From Entoloma clypeatum (Eukaryota > Basidiomycota > Agaricomycetes > Agaricales > Entolomataceae), in the NCBI GenBank assembly GCA_963565915.1, contig OY751497.1:1-64000 (forward strand): a stretch of 64,000 bases of DNA. The letters are read 5' to 3'. The position numbers and the translations under genes are program-made. The notes under the pieces were generated by a model that was given only the letters and a program-made list of their open reading frames with translations, searched no databases and had not been told where the DNA came from. Below, one piece after another: positions 3,539-57,029 of this stretch. Each line of letters opens with the position of its first letter. The stretch's first letter is position 1.

Positions 3539-4887
3539 TTAAAATATTTTCTTAATTAGCTTCTTTGAAACAGGTTTATTCCAGTTATCTGTAATATCTT
3601 CTTCTAGTGGATAATTCATCTTAGTTTTACCTTTAATAGTTTCAATACTTGAAGTAGAGGCTGATGAAGATGAAGAATTAGATGGTCTTTCATTTTCCCA
3701 ATTGTAAAAAGTAGGAATTTCAATAGGTGTTCTAGGTAATTGATTTAACATATTTTGAATTCTAGCATTTTCTGCCCATTTAGAAGCTATTGAAAGATCG
3801 CTTTCAATACCGAATCCAAATCCTGGAGTATGAATTCCTGAATATACTCCACTTTGTACATTTGGATTTACAGATAAAGCAATAAGTTCTCTTAATGCGA
3901 AATTTTTATCTAACATTCTTTCTGCAATATCAGCTTCAGTTTCTCCAAACATTAATATTCTAGCTCTAGAATACCAAGGATTGTAAGGATTTGTTGGTGT
4001 AAACGGATAGAATCTATTATCTGAAATAGTAATATTAAATTGATTTACTCTAAACATTAATTCCTGTGATTCATTATTAGAAAAAATGTGTAACCAACTA
4101 AATGGATTTAAGTAACTTTTCATTTTAGATATTAATGAAGTTGAATCAAGTGGTTGTATAGTTGAAGTTGAAGTCGGAGAATTTCCTGGAGTTGATCCAT
4201 TAAAATAGCTATATAACGTATATCCACTAAATAATACTCCACTAATTATTACTATACCACCTAATAACCATAACCAATTATTCCAATCTTTTAATATTGT
4301 AGTTTCACTATTAATACTATTTACATTTATTGGTGAAGGGAATATATCTTTAGCTTTTTGAGCTAAATCCATTAAACCATTATCATTCATTGGACTACTA
4401 TACCGTCCAATTCCATTTAATGGTCCAAACCAATTATTTTTAGGTGGAATGCTAGGTGTTAATTTATAATCAAATAAGTTAAAAACCAATTAAATAATTT
4501 TGTAGTAAAATTGGTAATTATATCAATATATGTATAACCCATTCCTACAAAATTAGCTAAAATAGTATCTACACCTATACCTGATAAACTAAATACAGTA
4601 TATACTCCAATAATAGAATTAAAGATTATAAAAATTTTTCTAATATAAATTAATGTTTTTCATAATGTAGTTTTACCATAAAAGAATTTTAATAGCTTAA
4701 TTAACCGATTAATAATAGGTATTTTATTTATAAATAATAATAACCATGATATTATATACATTTGTATAAACGATGTTTTCATGTGGTTATTATTATCTGT
4801 TTTATTTTTATTACCATCTAAATTCTTTTTTAATTTTAAAATATTTAATTGCTCCTGTAATGATTTCATTGTTAATTTATTTTTCAT
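3539..4887 (-). pseudogene. Plasmid-type membrane protein gene, frameshifted
   Basis: Two overlapping frames appear to be one gene. Frame 1 (4887 to 4459, 142 codons) starts at ATG, is hydrophilic, then has hydrophobic segments; it contains one TGA at 4660-4662. Frame 2 (to 3539) opens immediately after a TAA and offers only a TTG at 4489, with its first ATG 34 codons in. It encodes a Pro/Asn-rich linker, one clear transmembrane helix (about residues 72-92 of that frame) and a soluble domain ending in Lys/Ile-rich sequence. The frames join around the A5 run at 4481-4485, and one extra base there would give one continuous reading. Function is unknown. It is downstream of the dpo remnant and probably belongs to the same element. 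Confidence 0.6.
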
Positions 4888-4981: not shown

Positions 4982-5935
4982 TTAACCATGTATTTGTTTA
5001 GATACTAACCAAAAAATCATATAAACATAAATATTTATATCTTTTTTATTTATTAATAATAATAATTTACTAATAAAAACTTGAAACAATTCTCCTTGAT
5101 CAAAATTTATATTTGAATATGAAGTAATATGTTCTTTTCCATTATATGCATTAATTAAATATGGTATAATTTTTCCATCTTTATTTATTGTTTCTATATC
5201 AAATGTTAAAATTTTATTATTTTTAGATTTTTCTTCTAAGCGTTGTTTAAATGGTTTTGCTGTTCTTTCTATTTTTTGTAATATTTTTTCTCCATCGACA
5301 AAATAAATTGTGGATTTCCCTATTTCTCTTTTAAATCCTTCATTTAATTTTGTATCAATCCATTCAAATTTATTTAATCCTAATATTTTTACCGTATTAA
5401 CTGATTTCTCACTATTAATATCTATTTGAAAAACTCTAATCCCATCACTAACAATATTTCTAGTAAAATTTGTAAATTAACTTATTGATATTATTTCTCC
5501 ATAGTTTTTAGGTACCATTGATATTGGTAATTTTTTATTGTTAAATATATGAGAAGTTATTCCTTTATCACTCAAATCTCTAAATAACACTCGTGAATCA
5601 TCTTCACTTACTTTTCCATCTCTTATTATATATGAAAATTTTATAATGTCTATTGGAAAAGTAATATATGCATCTGATAATAATCCTAATCTTTCTTGTA
5701 AATATGTAGTAAATAAATCTTTATCCTCATAATTTACTTTTACTAAATGTCCTAATGTTCTATACCCTAATTTACTATCTATAAAAAATACTTTAGTTAA
5801 TAAATATAAATGTTTTCTTTCTGAACTAATGTTTAAACTATCAAAAATATCAACCCAAAATTTATTTACATAAGCATTTAATATTTCATTTGATAATAAT
5901 ATATTATTTAATGAATATTTTTTCATTTTAATCAT
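4982..5935 (-). pseudogene. dpo: Plasmid family B DNA polymerase, N-terminal remnant
   Basis: The frame covers 318 codons from ATG 5935 to TAA 4982, with an internal TAA at 5477-5479 (codon 153). After the stop the same frame continues and contains the Exo I signature TFDIET (Asp and Glu of DxE near residues 246-248), followed by a DGKIIPYLINAYNG-like stretch typical of protein-primed plasmid polymerases. Everything beyond Exo I is absent here: Exo II, Exo III and the polymerase motifs. The product would have no polymerase activity. Other dpo pieces lie at 32468-32626 and 52071-52232. Family assignment is confident; the plasmid origin follows from the family. Confidence 0.82.
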
Positions 5936-7417
5936 CTTTAATTGTATATTGTTTGTTTATTAGAAATTTAATTCAAGAGGCCCAACTCATTATATATTTC
6001 CAAATGACTTATAATCATAAAATGACAATCTAATATTCATTTAAAATATAAAATCAGAAATATAAACAATATAATCATAAACTAAAATTATATCTCTTTT
6101 TATTTTTTGTTTTTATTTTATTTTATTTTATTTTATTTTAATTTATATTTATTAAAAACAAAAACAAAAACAAAAACAAAAACAAAAAATAAAATAAAAA
6201 TAACGTATTACATCCACAAAATTGGATAAATATATAGAGAATTCTAATTAGAATTAGAATTAGAATTAGAATTAGAATTAGAATTAGAATTAGAATTATT
6301 AATAAATGTATAACACACAATTTTTAACTAGTTTGTACAAAACTAATATTTATAAGCTATGATTTTATCTCCTTATCTAATCCTCCTCTAGCATCCTATC
6401 TATTTATCTATGTTATCGCTTCCTATCTACTACTATTTTGAAGTATAAGATTATAAAAATAAATATATTTAAATTATTTTAAAGAAATAAAATAAAATTT
6501 AGAAATAGAATTAAATATAAAAAAGGAAGTAAATAGTTGTAAAGATTAGATTTTTTTATTTATTATTTACTTTATTTTGTTAAATTATAATAAAAATAAA
6601 CTTTTATTAGTATTTGTTGTAGAGGTAGTAGTACTATTTCGTAGTTTCTTTAAATTTATTAAATTAATCAGAAAGTAAATATAAATTTTTATTTATAGAT
6701 ATATTAAGGTTATTTTTCCTCTAGCCATTTTTCCTACGTAGTTTTTTAATATTTCACTAAATACTTTATTTAAATTTAAAGAGGTAAATTTTCATAGTTC
6801 CTAGATAATTAAATTTTATAGGTAGACGAAGTATTCAAAATAAGTAGAATAAATAACTACTAAACGTAGTATTTCTATAGAAGAAAGAATAAATAACTAC
6901 TTTCTTGAAAATACTTATTATTAGTTTTTTTATATGTAAAAATTTAATTAGATATTTACCTGAGTATTTAAGATTATATAAGTATATTTATTAATAAATA
7001 TTAGATAAAAAAAATAAGTATAAAGACTCTAAAATTTAATTAAATTCTATTAAATTTTTTAGATAAACATTTCTACAAATACAAAGACGTAGACGAAATA
7101 CTACTACTTACTTGAAGGCGTTATTCTAATAAATAAAAGAAGTTGAACTAGTACTTGTAAAAGTACTAGTTGAAGTAGTAATAGTTCGTTTAGTAGAATT
7201 ACTTATAATTCATAATAAATATTATATTCTAATAAAATATTATACTAATAAATAATTATTTAAAATAATATAAATATAAATATAAATATAAAAACTTCAT
7301 ATAAAAAAATAATAATATTATATTATATAATATAAATCAATAAATAAGGTTAAAATAATTTAATTAAAATAAAAATTAAAGTAAATAAAAATAAATAAAA
7401 TAAACTAAAAATTAATC
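5936..7417. other. Divergent spacer with simple repeats
   Basis: The spacer separates the minus-strand plasmid cassette from plus-strand nad4, so transcription must start outward in both directions near here. It holds TTTTA and AAAAAC runs (about 6105-6200), an AGAATT hexamer array, and ACGT and CTAGTACTT hairpins, for example AACTAGTACTT/AAGTACTAGTT around 7144-7169. No gene was seen. Confidence 0.6.
6243..6297 (+). repeat. (AGAATT)n hexamer array
   Basis: About nine perfect copies of AATTAG/AGAATT. A small frame translates through it on the minus strand but is an artefact of the repeat. Confidence 0.9.
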
Positions 7418-9114: not shown

Positions 9115-10353
9115 TTTAATTTTTTTAAATATTATTTAAAAATCTAAATGTATTAAATATAACAAAGAGGTGGGTTAATATATAGAAGTTGATAAAGTTC
9201 TACCATCTCTACGTAAAATTATAATAAAAGAAGTTCTATACAAAATTAAAATTATTTCTACGAAGAAGTACGTAGAAGTACGTATAAGTACGTAGAAGTA
9301 GTACGTAGAAGTAGATGTAGAGGAAGATGTAGTACTAGCACTAGTACTAGTAGAATTACTTATATTTATGAATTTCTTCTTCTACTAGACGAAGTATTTC
9401 TTCTTTACAAGTTCAACTAGTACTTTTACAAGTACTAGTTACAAGAATTCTATAAACTACTTTAAATTTAGTAGTGCGTGTACGTATAAATTTAATTTAG
9501 TTCTAATTAAATTAAAATTTGAAGAAAATGAAAACCTAATTTAATTATTTTAATCTATTTAATTAAATTAATTGTTTATTGCCATTCTCCCATATAAATA
9601 TAATTTAAAAGAAAGAAGATCAGTTTACTCCTATTTTATTAAAAATTAATATTATTTTAGAAGTAATTATTTCGTCTTCGTATAAATATTCCTTTATTTA
9701 AATATTAAATATTTTATATTAAATATTATAATAAATAGAATTTAAAAAACAAAAAATTAAAAATAAAGTAGAGTAAAATTTAACTATTACTTTAAAATTT
9801 AGCTATATAAATAAACAAATTATTAAAAACAAAAATTTATTACAATAAAAAATGAATAACAACTACGTATTACTACTACAAAAATATATTTTTAAAAAAT
9901 AAAACGTTAAGTTTATTTCCCACTATACTAACTTTAAATAGTGAAATAATAAATTATAAAAAATGTAAACAAAAACTACGTACAAAAATTGGATAAAAAC
10001 ATAGAGAATTAGAATAATTTGAAAAGGAATAAAACACTACGTATTACTACTACTACAAAATAAGAGCTTTTTACTAAGAAATAGAAAAATATAAGAGTAT
10101 ACAAGTAAAACTATGTATAAACGTAGAAATAATAAATAATAGAGAGAATTTTAGTAAACTGTAAGGTATACCTAAAAAAAAACAAAAGTACGTTACTACG
10201 TTACTACGTTACTACGTTACTACGAACAAAAACAAAAACAAATAAATCTCTAGAAGTAGAGCAAAGTAGTAAATTATAATATAAGTGAATTAGTTAAAAA
10301 AATACAAATAAAAACAAAAGTACGTTACTACTACAAAATAAGTTTAAAAAGAT

Positions 10354-13498: not shown

Positions 13499-14193
13499 AT
13501 AATTTTTATTTATTTTTTTAATTATCGTATAATATTTGTTTAATTACAATTTTTAATATCTTCTTTTAATTAATTTTAAATTTTTTATAATTATATTTTT
13601 AATAGATATTTATTTTAATTTTGTTTTAGTAGTACTTGTAGAACGTAGAACTACGAAATTGTAATACTTCTACTTATTTTATAGAAGTTGTAATACTTCT
13701 ACTTATTTAATAGTAGTTGTTGTACTTGTACTTGAAGATTTTGTAGTAGAAGAGGAAGAAGAACTTGTAGAAGTTGTTGTAGTACTTCGTTTAGAAGTAG
13801 TACTTCATCTTCGTAAAGATTATTATTTTTATAGAAGTATTATTATTTAATTTTGTTTTAATTTGTAATAGGGGTTATATAATAATTATTATTATATTTA
13901 AAGAACATAATTTTTTTAAATTATTTAATAATTTTATTTAAATTTAATCATTTAAATTTTATTAATTTTTACCATGAAGATTTTTTTCCAGATGTAGTAC
14001 ATATAAGTACCTGAAGAAATACTAGTTTTACTAGTTAGAAGCTGTAGAACTTTAAGAAGAAATAAATATCTCTTCTTTAATTAAATAGAAAAATATTAAA
14101 TAAATAATAGATAATTTAAATTTTTTTACGTTGGACTAGGACGTAGAACTAGTTTTTTAATTTATTATTTTTATAGAAGTACTATTTATTTTA
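13499..14193. repeat. Spacer rns/nad5
   Basis: AT-rich, with GTAGTACTTGTAGAA repeats (13630-13810) and, at 14124-14157, a 34-bp sequence repeated exactly at 18825-18858. No gene seen. Confidence 0.65.
13871..13874 (-). terminator. C-rich 3' element of nad5
   Basis: Minus sense ATATAACCCCTATT, 320 nt beyond the nad5 stop. Confidence 0.4.
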
Positions 14194-18759: not shown

Positions 18760-20518
18760 TTTTAATTGTTATTTTTGTTTTTTGTTTTTTAGAAGTAATT
18801 TTTCTCATTAATTTAATTTTTGTTTTTTACGTTGGACTAGGACGTAGAACTAGTTTTTCTACAGATGAAAGCTTCGTACTTCTATTCAAACTTTGTAATA
18901 ATAGTGACGTTGGTACTATAAACTACTTTCTAGAAACTAATAAGTAGTAGTACTATGAAATACTTCGTCTACAAGAAAGTGGTATTTATACTTTCTTGTA
19001 AACAAAGAAACTTCTACAACTTTATCTAAATAAATAGAAACTTCGTCTAGATATTACTACGTAGTAGAAGTATACGTAGTTTTTTAATGAAAATTTACTG
19101 TTAATTTAAAGATTTTACTTTTAATTTAAACAGCCAAGATATTAAATCAAGTTATTATTTTTATCCCACTTTATTAATCCTAAACCTAAACCTAAAAATA
19201 TATTATTTCTTTAAAATATATAGAAAAACTAAATCTATAAATATTAGTAATAGAACTAGTATATGATTTTCATTTATATTTAATTATTAAATATAAAAGA
19301 AAAAATTTTAAATTAATTATAATTATATAGAAATCTAAGATAAATATCATAAAGATAAAAATTAAAAAAAAAAAATTATAATTGTTTATTAAAGATTTAA
19401 AATAAATATTAAATAAAAAAACTATACTAATAAATATTATTATTTATTTTTATTTTATTAATTACTAAATTTTATTCTTTGATACAAATGAAAAGAAATA
19501 AGTACTTATTAATCATAAGTACTACTTTATTTCTTGAAATATTTTTATTCTTATTTCTTCAAATAAATACTAGTATTTAAATTATTTTATAAACAATTAC
19601 TTTATAAATTAAATTTATTAATCCTACCACCCATAACTACTAACCTAAAATAAGTTAATATTTTTACGTAGTAGTACTTCGTAGTACGTAGTTTTTTGTT
19701 TTTTATTTTTATAATTTTCAAATAAAAACATTATTTCTAAGTAGTAACTAGTTTTGTACATACTTTTGTTTTTTATAGTTTCTACTAAATAAAAAGTACT
19801 AAATACTAAATACTTTTTTTTTTTTCAAAAAGTTAAATTTTAATTTTAGACGTAGTACTACTACTTTTTAGTTTATTTTTTTAGAGTAAGTTTAAAAATA
19901 AAGTAGAAGTTTCTTTTCTTTTTGTATTAAATCTATTTATCTTATTTTTAAATTAGATAAATAATTAAGAATATAAAGAATATTAAATTAAATTAACTAT
20001 TTATTTAAAATATATTTAGAAGACGTAGACGTAGACAAAGAATTTCTACTTGAATAGTTAAACCATTATTATAACTTATGTAATATTTTATTATAAATTA
20101 AATTATATATTATTTATATTATATCTTATTTGTTATTAATACTAGTATTATGTACTAGTTCTACGTTCTATTTCTAGTACTACTTATGATTCAGTTGTAG
20201 AAATATAATTTTATATTTATTTATAATTGTATTAGACTTAATAAATAAAATATAATGTATTAATAACAAATAAAATATTTTATATTATTAGAAAATAATG
20301 TAAAGGTAGTGTATAGTTTTTATTTATATTTTTAATTTAAAGTACTATGAAATACTATCAAGAAAGTAGTATAGAAATATATATAAATTTATTAATATTA
20401 TATTTTATTTGTTATACCTAAATTATGTATTCTTAAAAAAAAATAAATAAGCTTGCATAAATAATTGCATATCTAAAATAAGATTTGAGAATTACAAATA
20501 ATATTATTTGTAAGTACT
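18760..20518. repeat. Spacer nad1/trnI, repeat-rich
   Basis: It holds the second copy of the 34-bp direct repeat (18825-18858), CTTTCTTG and ACGTAGTAG hairpins near 18930-19080, and AT-rich filler. No gene seen. Confidence 0.65.
18825..18858 (+). repeat. 34-bp direct repeat (other copy 14124-14157)
   Basis: Identical in both places, with the core ACGTTGGACTAGGACGTAG. One copy lies just upstream of nad1 and the other downstream of nad5. Related GGACTAGGACGTAG-like words occur elsewhere. Confidence 0.85.
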
Positions 20519-20705
20519 TTATTTTTACACTATAACTATAATATTTTATTTTATTTTTATACTTAATGTATAATATTTATATAAGCCCAAGAAGATTTGA
20601 ACTTCTACAGATTCCTCATCAAGAAATTATTCTACCATTAAATTATAGGCTTTAAATTATTTTATTTAAACTTAACTACTTTTATTTAATTATATAAAAT
20701 ATTAA
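20519..20705. repeat. 187-bp inverted repeat, copy A
   Basis: Exact reverse complement of 30038-30224 as read by eye. It contains a whole tRNA-Ile gene plus flanks. It can support recombination that inverts the 9.3-kb segment carrying trnK, cox1, orf300, nad2, nad3 and trnH. Confidence 0.9.
20582..20652 (-). tRNA. trnI: tRNA-Ile (GAU), copy A
   Basis: The acceptor AAGCCTA pairs with TGGGCTT. The anticodon loop TTGATGA gives GAT. Identical to the plus-strand copy at 30091-30161. Confidence 0.9.
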
Positions 20706-21415: not shown

Positions 21416-23338
<1,923 letters not shown>

Positions 23339-23367
23339 ATTTTTTATTATATAATAAAATTAAAAAA

Positions 23368-24270
23368 ATGAAAATTTTAATAATGTATATGATAAATATA
23401 TTTTTAATGAAATTATTAATATATAATTTTAAATTATTTAAAAATATAATATTTAATATAGTAACTTCGTATACACTTATTAAATATATTTTAGGTTGTC
23501 AAAACTTTTATCTATTTGAAAAAATCATTCTTTCCTTTAATAAATTATTTGAAAATTTAATTGAATGGGAAAGAGAAGTAAAATCTTTAAAGAGATTAGG
23601 TTTATTATTAGGTACTGAAAATAATTTTCAATTTGAAACTTCAATTGTATATATAACTTCACCACAAGAACAAGATGAAACTAGTGATAGTGGAAATGGA
23701 AATGGTAGTGGTAGTGGTAGTGAAGATGAAGAAGATAATGATAATTATATTCCTAAAAATTCTATAGATAAAGGTAAAAATAAGTCAGTGCTTCATGAAA
23801 ATAATGAAGATGTAAATGAAGCATTGATAGAAGTAGCCGAAAAAAGTAAAAAAGGAGATAGTTTACCTAAAATAGAGGAAGAAGAAGACTTTGTAGAGAA
23901 TCAAGATAGTAGAAATACTTCTAATCCAAAACCCAGAGATCAAGAAAATCCACATATGGAAGATAATTCAAATAATAATTATGTGGATGATGAAGAAGGA
24001 CTTGTGGGTAAATTAAAAAGAAACTTTGGTTTTGATAATTTAGCTTCACTTTGGAATAGTAGTAATAACTCTGCTAGCTCTTCAAATAATAATAATGATA
24101 GTAATAGTACTTCTTCTAATGCTAATGCTAGTTCTTCTTCTAGTTCTTCAATTAATAATAATGATAGTAATAGTACTTCTACAACAAATAATAATAATTC
24201 TCAAGGTCGATTTTTCATAGATGAAGATTATGATTCAGATTGTGAGGATGAAGACTTTGGAGATGAGTAA
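23368..24270 (+). CDS. orf300, membrane-anchored acidic Ser/Asn-rich protein
   Basis: Function unknown. I start it at the ATG 23368, 29 nt after cox1; the frame is open upstream into the cox1 3' end, but that part has no leader. Residues 1-60 hold two hydrophobic stretches. About 90-180 is acidic (Glu/Asp/Ser-rich, with a GNGNGSGSGSEDEED run). About 235-285 is a low-complexity Ser/Asn tail with a duplicated NNNDSNSTS unit. The C terminus is very acidic (EDYDSDCEDEDF). Uninterrupted over 300 codons despite low-complexity DNA, so probably translated. A perfect AGAACTTCTA/TAGAAGTTCT hairpin follows directly after the stop, and a C-rich 3' element lies 146 nt on. Probably co-transcribed with cox1. 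Confidence 0.7.
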   Translation: MKILIMYMINIFLMKLLIYNFKLFKNIIFNIVTSYTLIKYILGCQNFYLFEKIILSFNKLFENLIEWEREVKSLKRLGLLLGTENNFQFETSIVYITSPQEQDETSDSGNGNGSGSGSEDEEDNDNYIPKNSIDKGKNKSVLHENNEDVNEALIEVAEKSKKGDSLPKIEEEEDFVENQDSRNTSNPKPRDQENPHMEDNSNNNYVDDEEGLVGKLKRNFGFDNLASLWNSSNNSASSSNNNNDSNSTSSNANASSSSSSSINNNDSNSTSTTNNNNSQGRFFIDEDYDSDCEDEDFGDE

Positions 24271-30037: not shown

Positions 30038-30224
30038 TTAATATTTTATATAATTAAATAAAAGTAGTTAAGTTTAAATAAAATAATTTAAAGCCTATAA
30101 TTTAATGGTAGAATAATTTCTTGATGAGGAATCTGTAGAAGTTCAAATCTTCTTGGGCTTATATAAATATTATACATTAAGTATAAAAATAAAATAAAAT
30201 ATTATAGTTATAGTGTAAAAATAA
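30038..30224. repeat. 187-bp inverted repeat, copy B
   Basis: Exact inverse partner of 20519-20705, including the whole tRNA-Ile gene. Confidence 0.9.
30091..30161 (+). tRNA. trnI: tRNA-Ile (GAU), copy B
   Basis: Same sequence as the minus-strand copy at 20582-20652: acceptor AAGCCTA/TGGGCTT, anticodon GAT. Confidence 0.9.
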
Positions 30225-36585: not shown

Positions 36586-37521
36586 TTAAAATATAATATT
36601 AAATAAACACAATTTACTCATAATTAAAGATATAAGTAAACATAAGCATGACAATATAAAAATAAATTGCGTAGATTTACTCCATATTCTTATATATCTT
36701 AATATTAAATATCTTAATAACTTAATAAATTTATTTTTAGAATTTGGATCTAAATATTTGTTAATATTTAATTTTGACAGTAATCTTGCTAGATAGGTAT
36801 TTAATATTATAAAAGTAAAAAAGAAAGAAAAATTATTATATTTATTTAAATCTTCTAACATTTGAATTTGATATTCATCTAAATTTTGTTGTTTATTAGA
36901 ATTATTATTAATATTATTAGAAAGAGAATTATTGTACGTAGTATTTTCTGATTCTTTATTTAATAATATTTTTTCATGAATATTTATTGTTAGAGCTGAC
37001 CATGCTTGACTTAAAGTAGATGCTGCTACACCAGTTAAGAGTTTTCTTGGTAAAGTATTAACCTTTTTAGCAGCTTCCATTCCTAATCTAAATCCACCTA
37101 AAATGATACCTTGATCTAGAACATTTCTAAATTGTTGATCTGTTACTGAAATTTTAACTATTGGATTATCTAATGTAAGATTATTGTCTTTATTTAATAT
37201 AAATGCCGTATTAATTTTATTAGAAGAAGTAGAAGTGACAAGTGAAGAACTATTATTAGATTCAATATTAATCATCTCTAATGTATTAGTATAATAGTTA
37301 TCTACCATATAAGTAACTAAATCAAATAGATTTATATCTATATTATATACTGCTGCTATAGTACTTAATATAAAATAAATAGTAAATATTAATTTTATAT
37401 TAAGTATTCTGGAATAACTATAAATTTTATTTACAAAATTTTTATTAAAATATTTATTTAATAAAATTCCTATAATAAAACCTATTAAAGAAAAAGAAAC
37501 CATATAAAAAATTTTTTTCAT
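36586..37521 (-). CDS. orf311, hypothetical four-helix membrane protein
   Basis: Function unknown. 311 residues. Hydrophobic helices at about 5-24 and 43-62, a soluble middle (about 70-230), and two C-terminal helices at about 234-252 and 285-310. The best conserved-looking part is a Gly/Ala-rich segment around 136-177 (ILGGFRLGMEAAKKV, then LLTGVAASTLSQAWSAL), followed by an Asn-rich linker. The ATG follows an A-rich leader like those of core genes, and a C-rich 3' element follows the stop, so it probably is expressed downstream of atp6. It may derive from a mitochondrial plasmid; that is inference only. Confidence 0.7.
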   Translation of the reverse strand: MKKIFYMVSFSLIGFIIGILLNKYFNKNFVNKIYSYSRILNIKLIFTIYFILSTIAAVYNIDINLFDLVTYMVDNYYTNTLEMINIESNNSSSLVTSTSSNKINTAFILNKDNNLTLDNPIVKISVTDQQFRNVLDQGIILGGFRLGMEAAKKVNTLPRKLLTGVAASTLSQAWSALTINIHEKILLNKESENTTYNNSLSNNINNNSNKQQNLDEYQIQMLEDLNKYNNFSFFFTFIILNTYLARLLSKLNINKYLDPNSKNKFIKLLRYLILRYIRIWSKSTQFIFILSCLCLLISLIMSKLCLFNIIF

Positions 37522-38021
37522 TTTTAATTTTTAGTTTTTTTATTTTTTTGTTTTTATTTACTATAATTTTTATTTTAATTAAATTATTTTAACCTTATTT
37601 ATTGATTTATATATTATTATATAATTATATATTTCTTTAATAAAAAATTTTTAATTTTTATATAACATTTAAATTAATTTCTTACAGAATATAATACAGT
37701 AAATGTATTTATAATTCCAAGTTTATTAAAAAAATGATATGAAGAAAACTACTTATACTACGTAGTAGCGCGTGAACTTAAAATAAACTTATAATTGATG
37801 ATAAAAATGCGTTAAATTTTTTAAGAATAATTATCTAAATTTAATTTACTAGTACTACTTGTATTTGAAGTAGTAGAACTTGTACAACAATATCAAATAA
37901 GTAGACTTCTATTTTTATCCATTCAAAAAATTTCTTACAACAATTAAAATAATAAAATTTATTTTTATTTTATACTACGTACTAGTTTTTTCTTTCTTAT
38001 TAATAATTAATTATTTAATAT
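37522..38021. other. Spacer orf311/atp6
   Basis: AT-rich with a few ACGT and GTAGTACTT repeats (37740-37910). No gene and no C-rich 3' element seen. Confidence 0.6.
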
Positions 38022-40328: not shown

Positions 40329-41546
40329 CATTTTTATTACTTTATATTACTTTATAATTTATTTATAGAGTAATAAGTAATATTCTTAACCTTTCAGTTA
40401 AGTTTAGACTATATCTTCAACCAGTATAAAGAATACAATTTATTTAGCCCTGGTTGTTGGCGTGTAGTCGTTGAAGGGTTATAAATTCTACAGTCGCTAT
40501 CACCTAAATATTATAACTTCCCTGCTGATTGCCCAATCTTTCAAATTTTCACTTATAAATAAGTATTGAAAGCTCTAAGGGTGTTCCAGCATATAGCCAA
40601 ATTCTAAATTAATATTGCTATTAAGATTCCCCAATGTCATAATAGGAACATAATATTCTATTCTACAAATATGTCAATAGGATCACTGTTATCATCTACA
40701 ATATTTGAAGTTTCTTGTATAATTACTTTATTTTCATTTATTTTATATAACATTGTTTCATGCATATGAGGAATTAAAGAAGGTTTGAATTCTTCGAAAC
40801 TTTGTTTAGTTAGATATATTCTTTCATAAACAGAATCATTATTACTATTCTTTTTATTATGAATACTACTGTTTAGATTAAACCTATCTTTAAGAACATT
40901 TATAAGAATTTCAATTTCTTCATGTTTGTAACTGTCCGTACATAAAGTTACCCCACCATTTTTCACTCGTTGACCATCATCCATAATCCAAAAAGCTAAA
41001 CTTCTATCTGTTAAATGATCTCCAATGTTAAATGGTATTATTTTCTTACCTTCCTCATTTAAAAACAAATCTGCTAGAGGTTTTAATTCTTCCAGTGATT
41101 GACTCCTAAAATATAATGACTTATTTATATTATTAAATCTATTATCTTCCCTTGTATATTCTTTGATTCCATCAACCATTAAAGGTAAACCACCTTCTTT
41201 AGTTAAATTGTACAAATAATTTAAATATTCTGATTTTTTATTTGACTGCTCAAAAGAAATAAAAGCTTTATTTAAACCAGTTCTTCCAATATGAGCTTCT
41301 CCTAATAATACTCCAATTAACATATCTTTCAGTGTTTTATTCATAATTCAGTTTATATTATATATTTGGTTCTAACTAATATTAAAATTAGAAAAAAAAG
41401 AACTATCTCTGCCTGATTTAATAATTTAAATCACAGCTTTCTATACACTATTATTTAACATTATATTTTATAGATATTAATGAGATATTGAGGGTATTTA
41501 ATTATTTTAATTAAAATATTATATTATGTTTATTTGATTTAATTTA
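40329..41546 (-). mobile_element. Group I intron in rnl (site 2500)
   Basis: The exon ends GTTTGGCACCT and CGATGTCGACTCATCC are contiguous in E. coli 23S rRNA, so the intron sits after the base equivalent to U2500. It follows a U and ends in G, as group I introns do. The 3' part shows core motifs: AATCAGCAGG (P4 side), AACGACTACACGCC (P7/P3) and GATATAGTC (P7'). The 5' part carries the endonuclease ORF. I could not draw a convincing P1 with the CACCT exon end. Its leader segment (about 41345-41490) resembles the atp8 leader. Confidence 0.88.
40658..41344 (-). CDS. LAGLIDADG homing endonuclease
   Basis: 228 residues. Two-motif enzyme of the LAGLIDADG_2 type (I-SceI-like family). Motif 1 is LIGVLLGEAHI (about 9-19), with Glu16 where Asp is usual. 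Motif 2 is LAFWIMDDGQ (about 116-125), with Asp present. It likely cuts intronless rnl to spread the intron. The frame is intact, so the intron may still be mobile. ATG 41344 follows a leader with a GTTC/GAAC stem. It lies inside the intron, 5' of the P4 core strand. Confidence 0.9.
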   Translation of the reverse strand: MNKTLKDMLIGVLLGEAHIGRTGLNKAFISFEQSNKKSEYLNYLYNLTKEGGLPLMVDGIKEYTREDNRFNNINKSLYFRSQSLEELKPLADLFLNEEGKKIIPFNIGDHLTDRSLAFWIMDDGQRVKNGGVTLCTDSYKHEEIEILINVLKDRFNLNSSIHNKKNSNNDSVYERIYLTKQSFEEFKPSLIPHMHETMLYKINENKVIIQETSNIVDDNSDPIDIFVE

Positions 41547-56744: not shown

Positions 56745-56870
56745 ATACCCTCAATATCTCATTTATATTATAATTTAAAATAAAATTATAAAAGCTTTAT
56801 TAATATTAAGCAGAGATAGTTCTTTTTAATTACTAAAATATTAGAGCCAAATAAAAATAATATAATCATC
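56745..56870 (+). promoter_or_regulatory. atp8 leader, related to intron endonuclease leader
   Basis: Shares ATACCCTCAATATCTCAT (18 nt) and GCAGAGATAGTTCTTTTT (18 nt), then an A(G/A)CCAAATA block, in the same order with the minus-strand 5' part of the rnl intron (41345-41490). In both, about 21 nt follow before the ATG. TATCTC can pair with GAGATA, and AGTTCT with AGAACC/AGAGCC (a base change keeps a G-U). Function inferred only. Confidence 0.7.
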
Positions 56871-57029
56871 ATGCCTCAATTAATACCATTTTTTTTCTTT
56901 AATCAAATATTATTTACATTTATTATTTTATTTTCTATAATTTTTGTATTTTCTAAATATATTTTACCTTTATTTACATTTCAACAAGTTATTAGAACAT
57001 ATATTACTAAATTAAGTAAAAAAAATTAA
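56871..57029 (+). CDS. atp8: ATP synthase F0 subunit 8
   Basis: 52 residues, starting MPQLIPFFF, with one transmembrane helix (about 10-28) and a basic C terminus ending SKKN. Small stator subunit of ATP synthase. Length and N-terminal MPQL signature match the fungal family. Alone in its transcription unit except for downstream tRNAs. Its leader is discussed separately. C-rich 3' element at 57122. Confidence 0.95.

Follow-up and report, generated by a model that had tools for sequence, protein, structure and literature searches.

The leader of atp8 and the leader of a homing endonuclease gene carried by a group I intron in rnl are homologous in the mitochondrial DNA of Entoloma clypeatum, and the homology runs up to the ATG of both genes. 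The homology itself is firm, and the two genes likely share an expression signal. Our analysis makes it probable, at a moderate level of confidence, that the mRNA leader from which the rnl-intron endonuclease is expressed is a captured copy of the atp8 type, and we infer that the transfer went from atp8 to the endonuclease. A second pair of homologous leaders, belonging to nad4 and an orphan gene, occurs in the same genome and suggests that genes outside the core set may borrow the expression signals of core genes.

The window, by which we mean the whole stretch of 64,000 nt analyzed here, is a fungal mitochondrial genome that contains rnl, rns, and the usual fungal mitochondrial genes, is read with genetic code 4, and has an AT content of 79%. 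The atp8 coding sequence (56871..57029, plus strand) encodes 52 amino acids with a match to Pfam PF05933 (Fun_ATP-synt_8) at E 2.5e-13. At 94% identity, its product matches a cluster that bears the name of Myochromella boudieri ATP8, in keeping with a host in the Agaricales that probably lies near Lyophyllaceae; the gene stands apart from atp6. Several open reading frames of the window are without a Pfam match at E <= 1e-3, namely 23278-24270 (+, 330 aa), 3539-4390 (-, 283 aa), 4459-4887 (-, 142 aa), and 5477-5935 (-, 152 aa); the first of these, orf330, overlaps with the end of cox1 in a different frame. Two near-identical tRNA-Ile(GAU) genes, at 20573-20652 (-) and 30091-30170 (+), form an inverted duplication of about 80 nt. 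Dispersed short repeats of the ACTACGTA type are numerous in this mtDNA, and a 36-nt exact repeat found behind nad5 (14122-14157) and before nad1 (18823-18858) is one of many dispersed short repeats.

The atp8 copy of the shared leader spans 56745..56870 on the plus strand, and the endonuclease copy spans 41345..41497 on the minus strand, inside the P1 loop of the intron. Block 1, ATACCCTCAATATCTCATT, is exact over 19 nt (56745-56763 on the plus strand and 41479-41497 on the minus strand), block 2, GCAGAGATAGTTCTTTTT, is exact over 18 nt (56810-56827 and 41395-41412 on the same two strands), and block 3 has the form GA(A/G)CCAAAT, being GAGCCAAAT at 56844-56852 before atp8 and GAACCAAAT at 41364-41372 before the endonuclease. 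Across the alignment of the two leaders, 91 of 129 aligned columns are identical. Block 3 ends 18 nt before the ATG of atp8 and 19 nt before that of the endonuclease, and the distance from the start of block 1 to the ATG is 126 nt in the one versus 153 nt in the other. The first-pass annotation had described two exact 18-nt blocks and a third similar one at equal spacing from the start codons, with the intron copy at about 41345-41490. The exact blocks and the third block are indeed there, although the first is 19 nt long; the equal spacing is true of the last block but not of the first; and the intron copy extends farther than described, to 41497. When up to three mismatches were allowed, block 1 had two matches in the window with 0.04 expected, and block 2 had two with 0.15 expected; for either block, two matches were obtained in 1 of 100 shuffles.

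We then placed this pair among the other leaders of the genome. Nineteen window leaders of 150 nt each were compared using a composition-weighted local score, which gives 171 pairs, and the 14 best pairs were each tested against 1000 dinucleotide shuffles in which both leaders were shuffled. We excluded nad3 and nad5 from this comparison, as the sequence upstream of them is coding; for cox1, the start that we used is a guess. The atp8-endonuclease pair scores 57.9, compared with a shuffle mean of 13.6 (sd 2.1, maximum 26.6), which corresponds to a z of about 21 with none of the 1000 shuffles reaching the score, and the similarity reported at first pass is thus well beyond that of shuffled AT-rich sequence. 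The third-ranking pair, nad4L and nad1, also exceeds all 1000 of its shuffles (29.9 versus 14.8 +/- 2.3, maximum 25.0), and for the remaining 11 of the 14 best pairs, between 1 and 330 of the 1000 shuffles score as high. With the rest of the window cut into 400-nt tiles, a 120-nt query of the atp8 leader scores 46.7 and 30.9 in the two tiles that contain the endonuclease leader and at most 20.7 elsewhere. The endonuclease leader as query finds atp8 at 37.0, followed by a weak match of 30.9 near 9.5 kb; we rejected that match (9495-9555, minus strand) as a third copy, as it is without the GAGATAG block and has no ATG where one is expected. Neither the block searches nor a profile built from the two leaders (next match at E 4.7) found a third copy in the window.

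The limits of the homology were examined on both sides. Past the ATG, a comparison of atp8 with the endonuclease gene over their first 120 nt gives no similarity beyond mononucleotide shuffles (147 of 500 as good). The stretch upstream of ATACCC shows no significant homology either (equalled in 44 of 500 such shuffles), although with longer flanks the best local alignment of both leaders reaches about -178/-204. The register with the ATG, the retention of the block closest to the start, and the lack of homology between the coding sequences together point to a start-codon signal.

The intron that carries the endonuclease spans 40329..41546 on the minus strand (1218 nt), as defined by the exon junction sequence and by guide pairing, and its insertion site in rnl is presumably L2500 in E. 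coli numbering. Its boundaries are set by the rnl exons, which read ...UUUGGCACCU and then CGAUGUCG (the 3' exon also being read as CGAUGUCGACUC); the 5' exon ends in U, and the intron, running from 41546 to 40329, ends in ...AUG. We scanned the joined exon ends against every intron position, and the best pairing found for the ligated exon junction, at -16.1 kcal/mol, lies just after the stop codon of the ORF. This is the guide GACAUUG-GGGAAUC (40625..40638, minus strand), which forms seven P10 pairs with CGAUGUC, with an eighth pair, G-U, in the best frame, and three P1 pairs with CCU, followed by a 2x2 mismatch. Put differently, GACAUUGGGG at 40638 pairs with CCUCGAUGUC, so that P1 and P10 extend across both exons, with P1 being weak. 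A second pairing of the guide, GGGGAAU with GUUCCU just past the endonuclease stop (40625-40649, minus strand), is visible both in the sequence and in the Rfam alignment; such an alternative P1 could be a competitor of the weak true P1 or could lead to cleavage of the RNA downstream of the ORF. The catalytic core (40385..40653, minus strand) matches the full RF00028 Intron_gpI model, 1-253, with 86.9 bits (cutoff 50) and E 1.8e-22. Leader and ORF both fall in the interval from the 5' splice site to the guide, and guide and core are found entirely 3' of the ORF; therefore, the leader does not belong to the ribozyme core, and leader and ORF make up a cassette in the P1 loop.

The endonuclease ORF itself (40658..41344, minus strand) encodes 228 amino acids with no internal stop and matches the LAGLIDADG_2 family (PF03161) at E 2.6e-40, with 138.5 bits over profile positions 2-168 of 168. 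It has its own ATG at intron position 203, and the exon upstream is rRNA, with no in-frame fusion. It has 264 relatives at E <= 1e-3, the closest being P0001-P0005, which are 85-90% identical and encoded on metagenome contigs. In 108 of the 120 relatives that were listed, the first motif starts 8-12 residues into the protein (10 in the window protein), and 64 of the same 120 begin with MNK, as the window protein does. Since the protein start is about equal in these 108 listed relatives, the leader is noncoding in the family. The second motif, WIMDDG, is retained. At residue 16 (41297-41299, minus strand), the window protein has E in the first motif (LLGEAH); of the 120 listed relatives, the motif was found in 118, and each of these carries D. 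A recent nuclear copy (L020, G000:C14:1379416-1379909) takes in the rnl exon, the intron leader, and the N-terminus of the endonuclease over 494 nt with three differences; it encodes D in the first LAGLIDADG motif, and the change from D to E thus looks recent. None of its three differences falls in the leader, and the copy is therefore uninformative on the direction of leader transfer.

The second pair consists of the nad4 leader (7262..7417, plus strand) and the leader of orf311 (37522..37680, minus strand), which are 83% identical, with similarity up to both ATGs. They score 87.4, against 24.3 +/- 3.5 (maximum 36.7) for 1000 dinucleotide shuffles (z 17.9). Past the ATG, and also further upstream of the leader, the comparison of nad4 with orf311 gave nothing significant (144 and 127 of 500 shuffles as good, respectively). 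The orphan gene orf311 (36586..37521, minus strand) contains hydrophobic stretches, and by inspection its product is a membrane protein; in Pfam, it has a match only below cutoff, to DUF2232. A search of 5.8 billion proteins returned one relative at E <= 1e-3, and because this single relative is 45% identical over 94%, we consider orf311 to be a real but rare gene. With nad4 being a core gene, the natural direction of donation is from nad4 to orf311. No particular resemblance between the two types of leader emerges, in that no pairing of an atp8-type with a nad4-type leader is among the 14 best of the 171 pairs. A nuclear insert elsewhere (L028, 1500-1579; G000:C6:3767795-3767872) is identical over about 60 nt to the orf311 leader, and not to the nad4 leader, and continues with a run of 19 A, as if polyadenylated RNA were its source. 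With nad4 and orf311 added to atp8 and the endonuclease, the alignments show that the copying of a leader up to the ATG appears to have happened at least twice in this mtDNA.

To ask which gene the leader came from, we relied on an indirect witness, namely ATP8 proteins of relatives that had been predicted too far upstream, in which the additional residues represent the translated leader. At least nine extra residues are present in 5 of the 120 listed ATP8 relatives (341 found), and the outcome was clear in one, ambiguous in one, and negative in three. The clear case is P0175, an ATP8 that is 84% identical to that of the window, whose ...NIEPNTHNFIY-MPQL implies AAYATHGARCCNAAY ending 18 nt before the ATG, and hence GAGCCAAAT at the same 18-nt distance. 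The counterpart before the window atp8 is AATATTAGAGCCAAAT, that is, AATATT(A)GAGCCAAAT-N18-ATG, with one extra A compared with P0175. When scored against 14 window leaders, P0175 gives its highest score with atp8 (16.8), followed by the endonuclease (15.8), with the next at 11.2; none of 400 shuffles reaches either score, although the match was noticed by eye before the test and its weight is somewhat below what the shuffle count conveys. P0139, the ambiguous case, matches the atp8 leader at a level reached by 3 of 400 shuffles, but its scores with the A-rich leaders of cox2 and nad4L are higher still. The read-throughs P0178, P0223, and P0227 are negative for the atp8 leader, as is P0189, which has seven extra residues. 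The corresponding endonuclease read-throughs, P0061, P0072, and P0102, all have the endonuclease leader outside their best three of 14; for P0102, the score of that leader is reached by 20 of 400 shuffles, and for P0061 the atp8 leader comes third, at a score reached by 33 of 400. The match of P0175 favors an atp8-type leader that would have been acquired by the endonuclease.

Direct searches for such a leader in a close fungus yielded none from viral contigs (searched with the endonuclease protein, the 19-mer, a gapped leader pattern, and alignments of atp8 and the endonuclease), none from genome contigs (alignments of atp8 and the endonuclease), and none from plasmids (endonuclease protein and leader), the plasmid search returning two distant bacterial endonuclease-like records at 28-35% identity. 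By tblastn, neither atp8 nor the endonuclease was found in 16 viral-contig loci, in which the leader profile does no better than E 3. In a distant mtDNA (L018, atp8 52% identical), the best leader-profile match has E 2.4 and does not lie before atp8; upstream of that atp8, a resemblance, TACCC ... GATAGTTTCC, is seen by eye only.

The argument from RNA structure is weak. The first-pass annotation had described likely paired segments as kept in both leaders. Pairing of TATCTC with GAGATA is possible in both, but this helix is invariant between the copies and therefore offers no covariation. GUUC/GAGC is predicted in the atp8 leader with a pair probability of about 0.86, whereas GUUC/GAAC in the endonuclease leader reaches 0.08, a different hairpin being favored there. 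With the conserved blocks fixed and the inner sequence shuffled, the outer stem was equally supported in 87 of 300 trials for atp8 and 28 of 300 for the endonuclease. Folding of the whole leader gave a z of -1.12 for atp8 (28 of 200 shuffles as good) and -2.35 for the endonuclease (3 of 200). Taken over these pairing and shuffle tests on the two copies, a secondary structure common to both leaders finds no support beyond chance, and Rfam holds no convincing match to either leader.

We propose that an atp8-type leader of about 125-150 nt, ending exactly at the start codon, was joined to the endonuclease ORF by recombination, and that leader and ORF would now form a single cassette in the P1 loop with guide and core downstream. 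The leader would cause the mitochondrial ribosome to handle the endonuclease mRNA like atp8 mRNA, and an activator specific to atp8, or a factor that forms RNA 5' ends, would probably also act on the endonuclease mRNA through it. This function in translation, and the factor involved, we infer. Given that an endonuclease ORF in an rRNA intron lacks a coding exon ahead of it with which it could be fused, the borrowed leader would substitute for exon fusion. Of the two explanations put forward at first pass, the takeover of an atp8-type translation leader by the endonuclease is the one favored, by P0175 and by the nad4/orf311 pair.

A different view of the same capture is that the element was mainly a promoter or an RNA-processing site for 5'-end formation, with the leader down to the ATG as a passenger. 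We regard this as unlikely, though it keeps some standing because atp8 and nad4 each follow minus-strand genes: atp8 is the first plus-strand gene past a minus-strand run, nad4 is the first past minus-strand orphan ORFs, and a promoter can be expected at such places. The longest exact block is also the far 5' one, 108-126 nt before the ATG of atp8. However, in both copies the block nearest the start codon has stayed in place relative to the ATG, one relative implies the same arrangement, atp8-type and nad4-type leaders do not pair up among the 14 best of 171, and the endonuclease and orf311 already sit inside minus-strand gene runs (those of rnl and atp6, respectively).

Alternatively, the endonuclease leader, a piece of the rnl intron, might have been copied to a place before atp8, displacing the leader that atp8 first had; this was the other explanation put forward at first pass. 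Homing endonuclease cassettes are mobile and able to carry flanks, and the alignment alone does not fix the direction. What makes this quite improbable in our view is that the leader lies outside the ribozyme, that the block and its spacing are implied upstream of the atp8 of another fungus (P0175), that core gene to orphan is the natural direction for nad4 and orf311, and that P0061, P0072, and P0102 are without the endonuclease leader in their best three of 14 (P0102 scoring it at 20 of 400 shuffles).

The shared stretch could also be a dispersed noncoding repeat that came to lie before two genes by chance. The many ACTACGTA-type short repeats may cause some leader-leader similarity, and the nad4L and nad1 leaders, which likewise exceed all of their shuffles, count against the capture reading to the extent that part of the leader similarity in this genome may have other causes, dispersed repeats among them. 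We give this very little credence, however, as only two copies were found in the window, their sequence is unlike the dispersed repeats, and both end at an ATG in sense orientation, as do those of nad4 and orf311. Chance similarity, which a window of 79% AT might suggest, can practically be dismissed with z at about 21, no dinucleotide shuffle in 1000 reaching the score, and two exact blocks for which 0.04 and 0.15 matches are expected even at three mismatches.

How endonucleases in rRNA introns are translated is not obvious, as there is no coding exon for fusion, and a core-gene leader on such an endonuclease would be a concrete and testable answer. If the endonuclease does use a captured atp8-type leader, a selfish gene would depend on the nuclear-encoded factor of ATP synthase subunit 8, and leaders would be exchangeable in fungal mtDNA. 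To our knowledge, little is known outside yeast of the bases recognized by mitochondrial leader-binding factors. The atp8/endonuclease and nad4/orf311 pairs are paralogous leader alignments from which the bases recognized by such factors in mushrooms might be readable. As a broader and distinctly more tentative proposal, leaders in this fungal group may be portable translation modules, with mobile and orphan genes copying a core leader and thereby joining the control of its nuclear-encoded activator; for the endonuclease, this would be the rRNA-intron counterpart of core creep, with homing tied to the control of ATP synthase synthesis.

Among the titles and abstract openings listed in searches of the open-licence literature, we found no description of an intron endonuclease with a core-gene leader, and several known systems share parts of what is seen here. 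In plant cytoplasmic male sterility, 5' regions of core genes are found before orphan ORFs such as T-urf13. As in those plants, mitochondrial recombination would have set core-gene sequence before ORFs outside the core set, with orf311 and its nad4 leader being the closest parallel; the endonuclease differs in being a mobile gene inside a self-splicing intron. In yeast, mitochondrial leaders can be swapped between genes, and ATP8 is co-transcribed with ATP6, whereas atp8 here stands apart. Translational activators in yeast are mRNA-specific, those of COX3 bind the 5' leader, and ATP6/ATP8 has its own, Atp22 (PMC3978653). The likeness to such gene-specific activation is that the 5' leader is the proposed target, the activator here being hypothetical.

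Core creep, in which an intron ORF becomes fused in frame to the upstream exon (PMC8393795), is similar in that an intron endonuclease gains host-gene signals that improve its translation. Our case differs from it in three ways: the host gene encodes an rRNA, the ORF is not fused in frame to an exon, and the signal is like that of an unlinked core gene, atp8. Mobile endonuclease ORFs that come with a C-terminal coding piece of a gene are described for atp6 of Allomyces macrogynus and for atp6, atp9, cox2, and nad3 of Glomus sp. (PMC3630166). These elements, too, link an endonuclease to a duplicated piece of a core gene; there the piece is coding and 3', whereas here it is a noncoding 5' leader that precedes the endonuclease ORF. 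Finally, a survey of 487 introns found that P1-P10 or P9 loops house the majority of ORFs (PMC7487136). With its ORF in L1, a complete core, and a single endonuclease, the rnl intron resembles the group I introns with a LAGLIDADG ORF in the P1-P10 loop. Unlike those ORFs, the endonuclease described here, which likely captured an atp8-type leader, brings with it a leader homologous to that of atp8.
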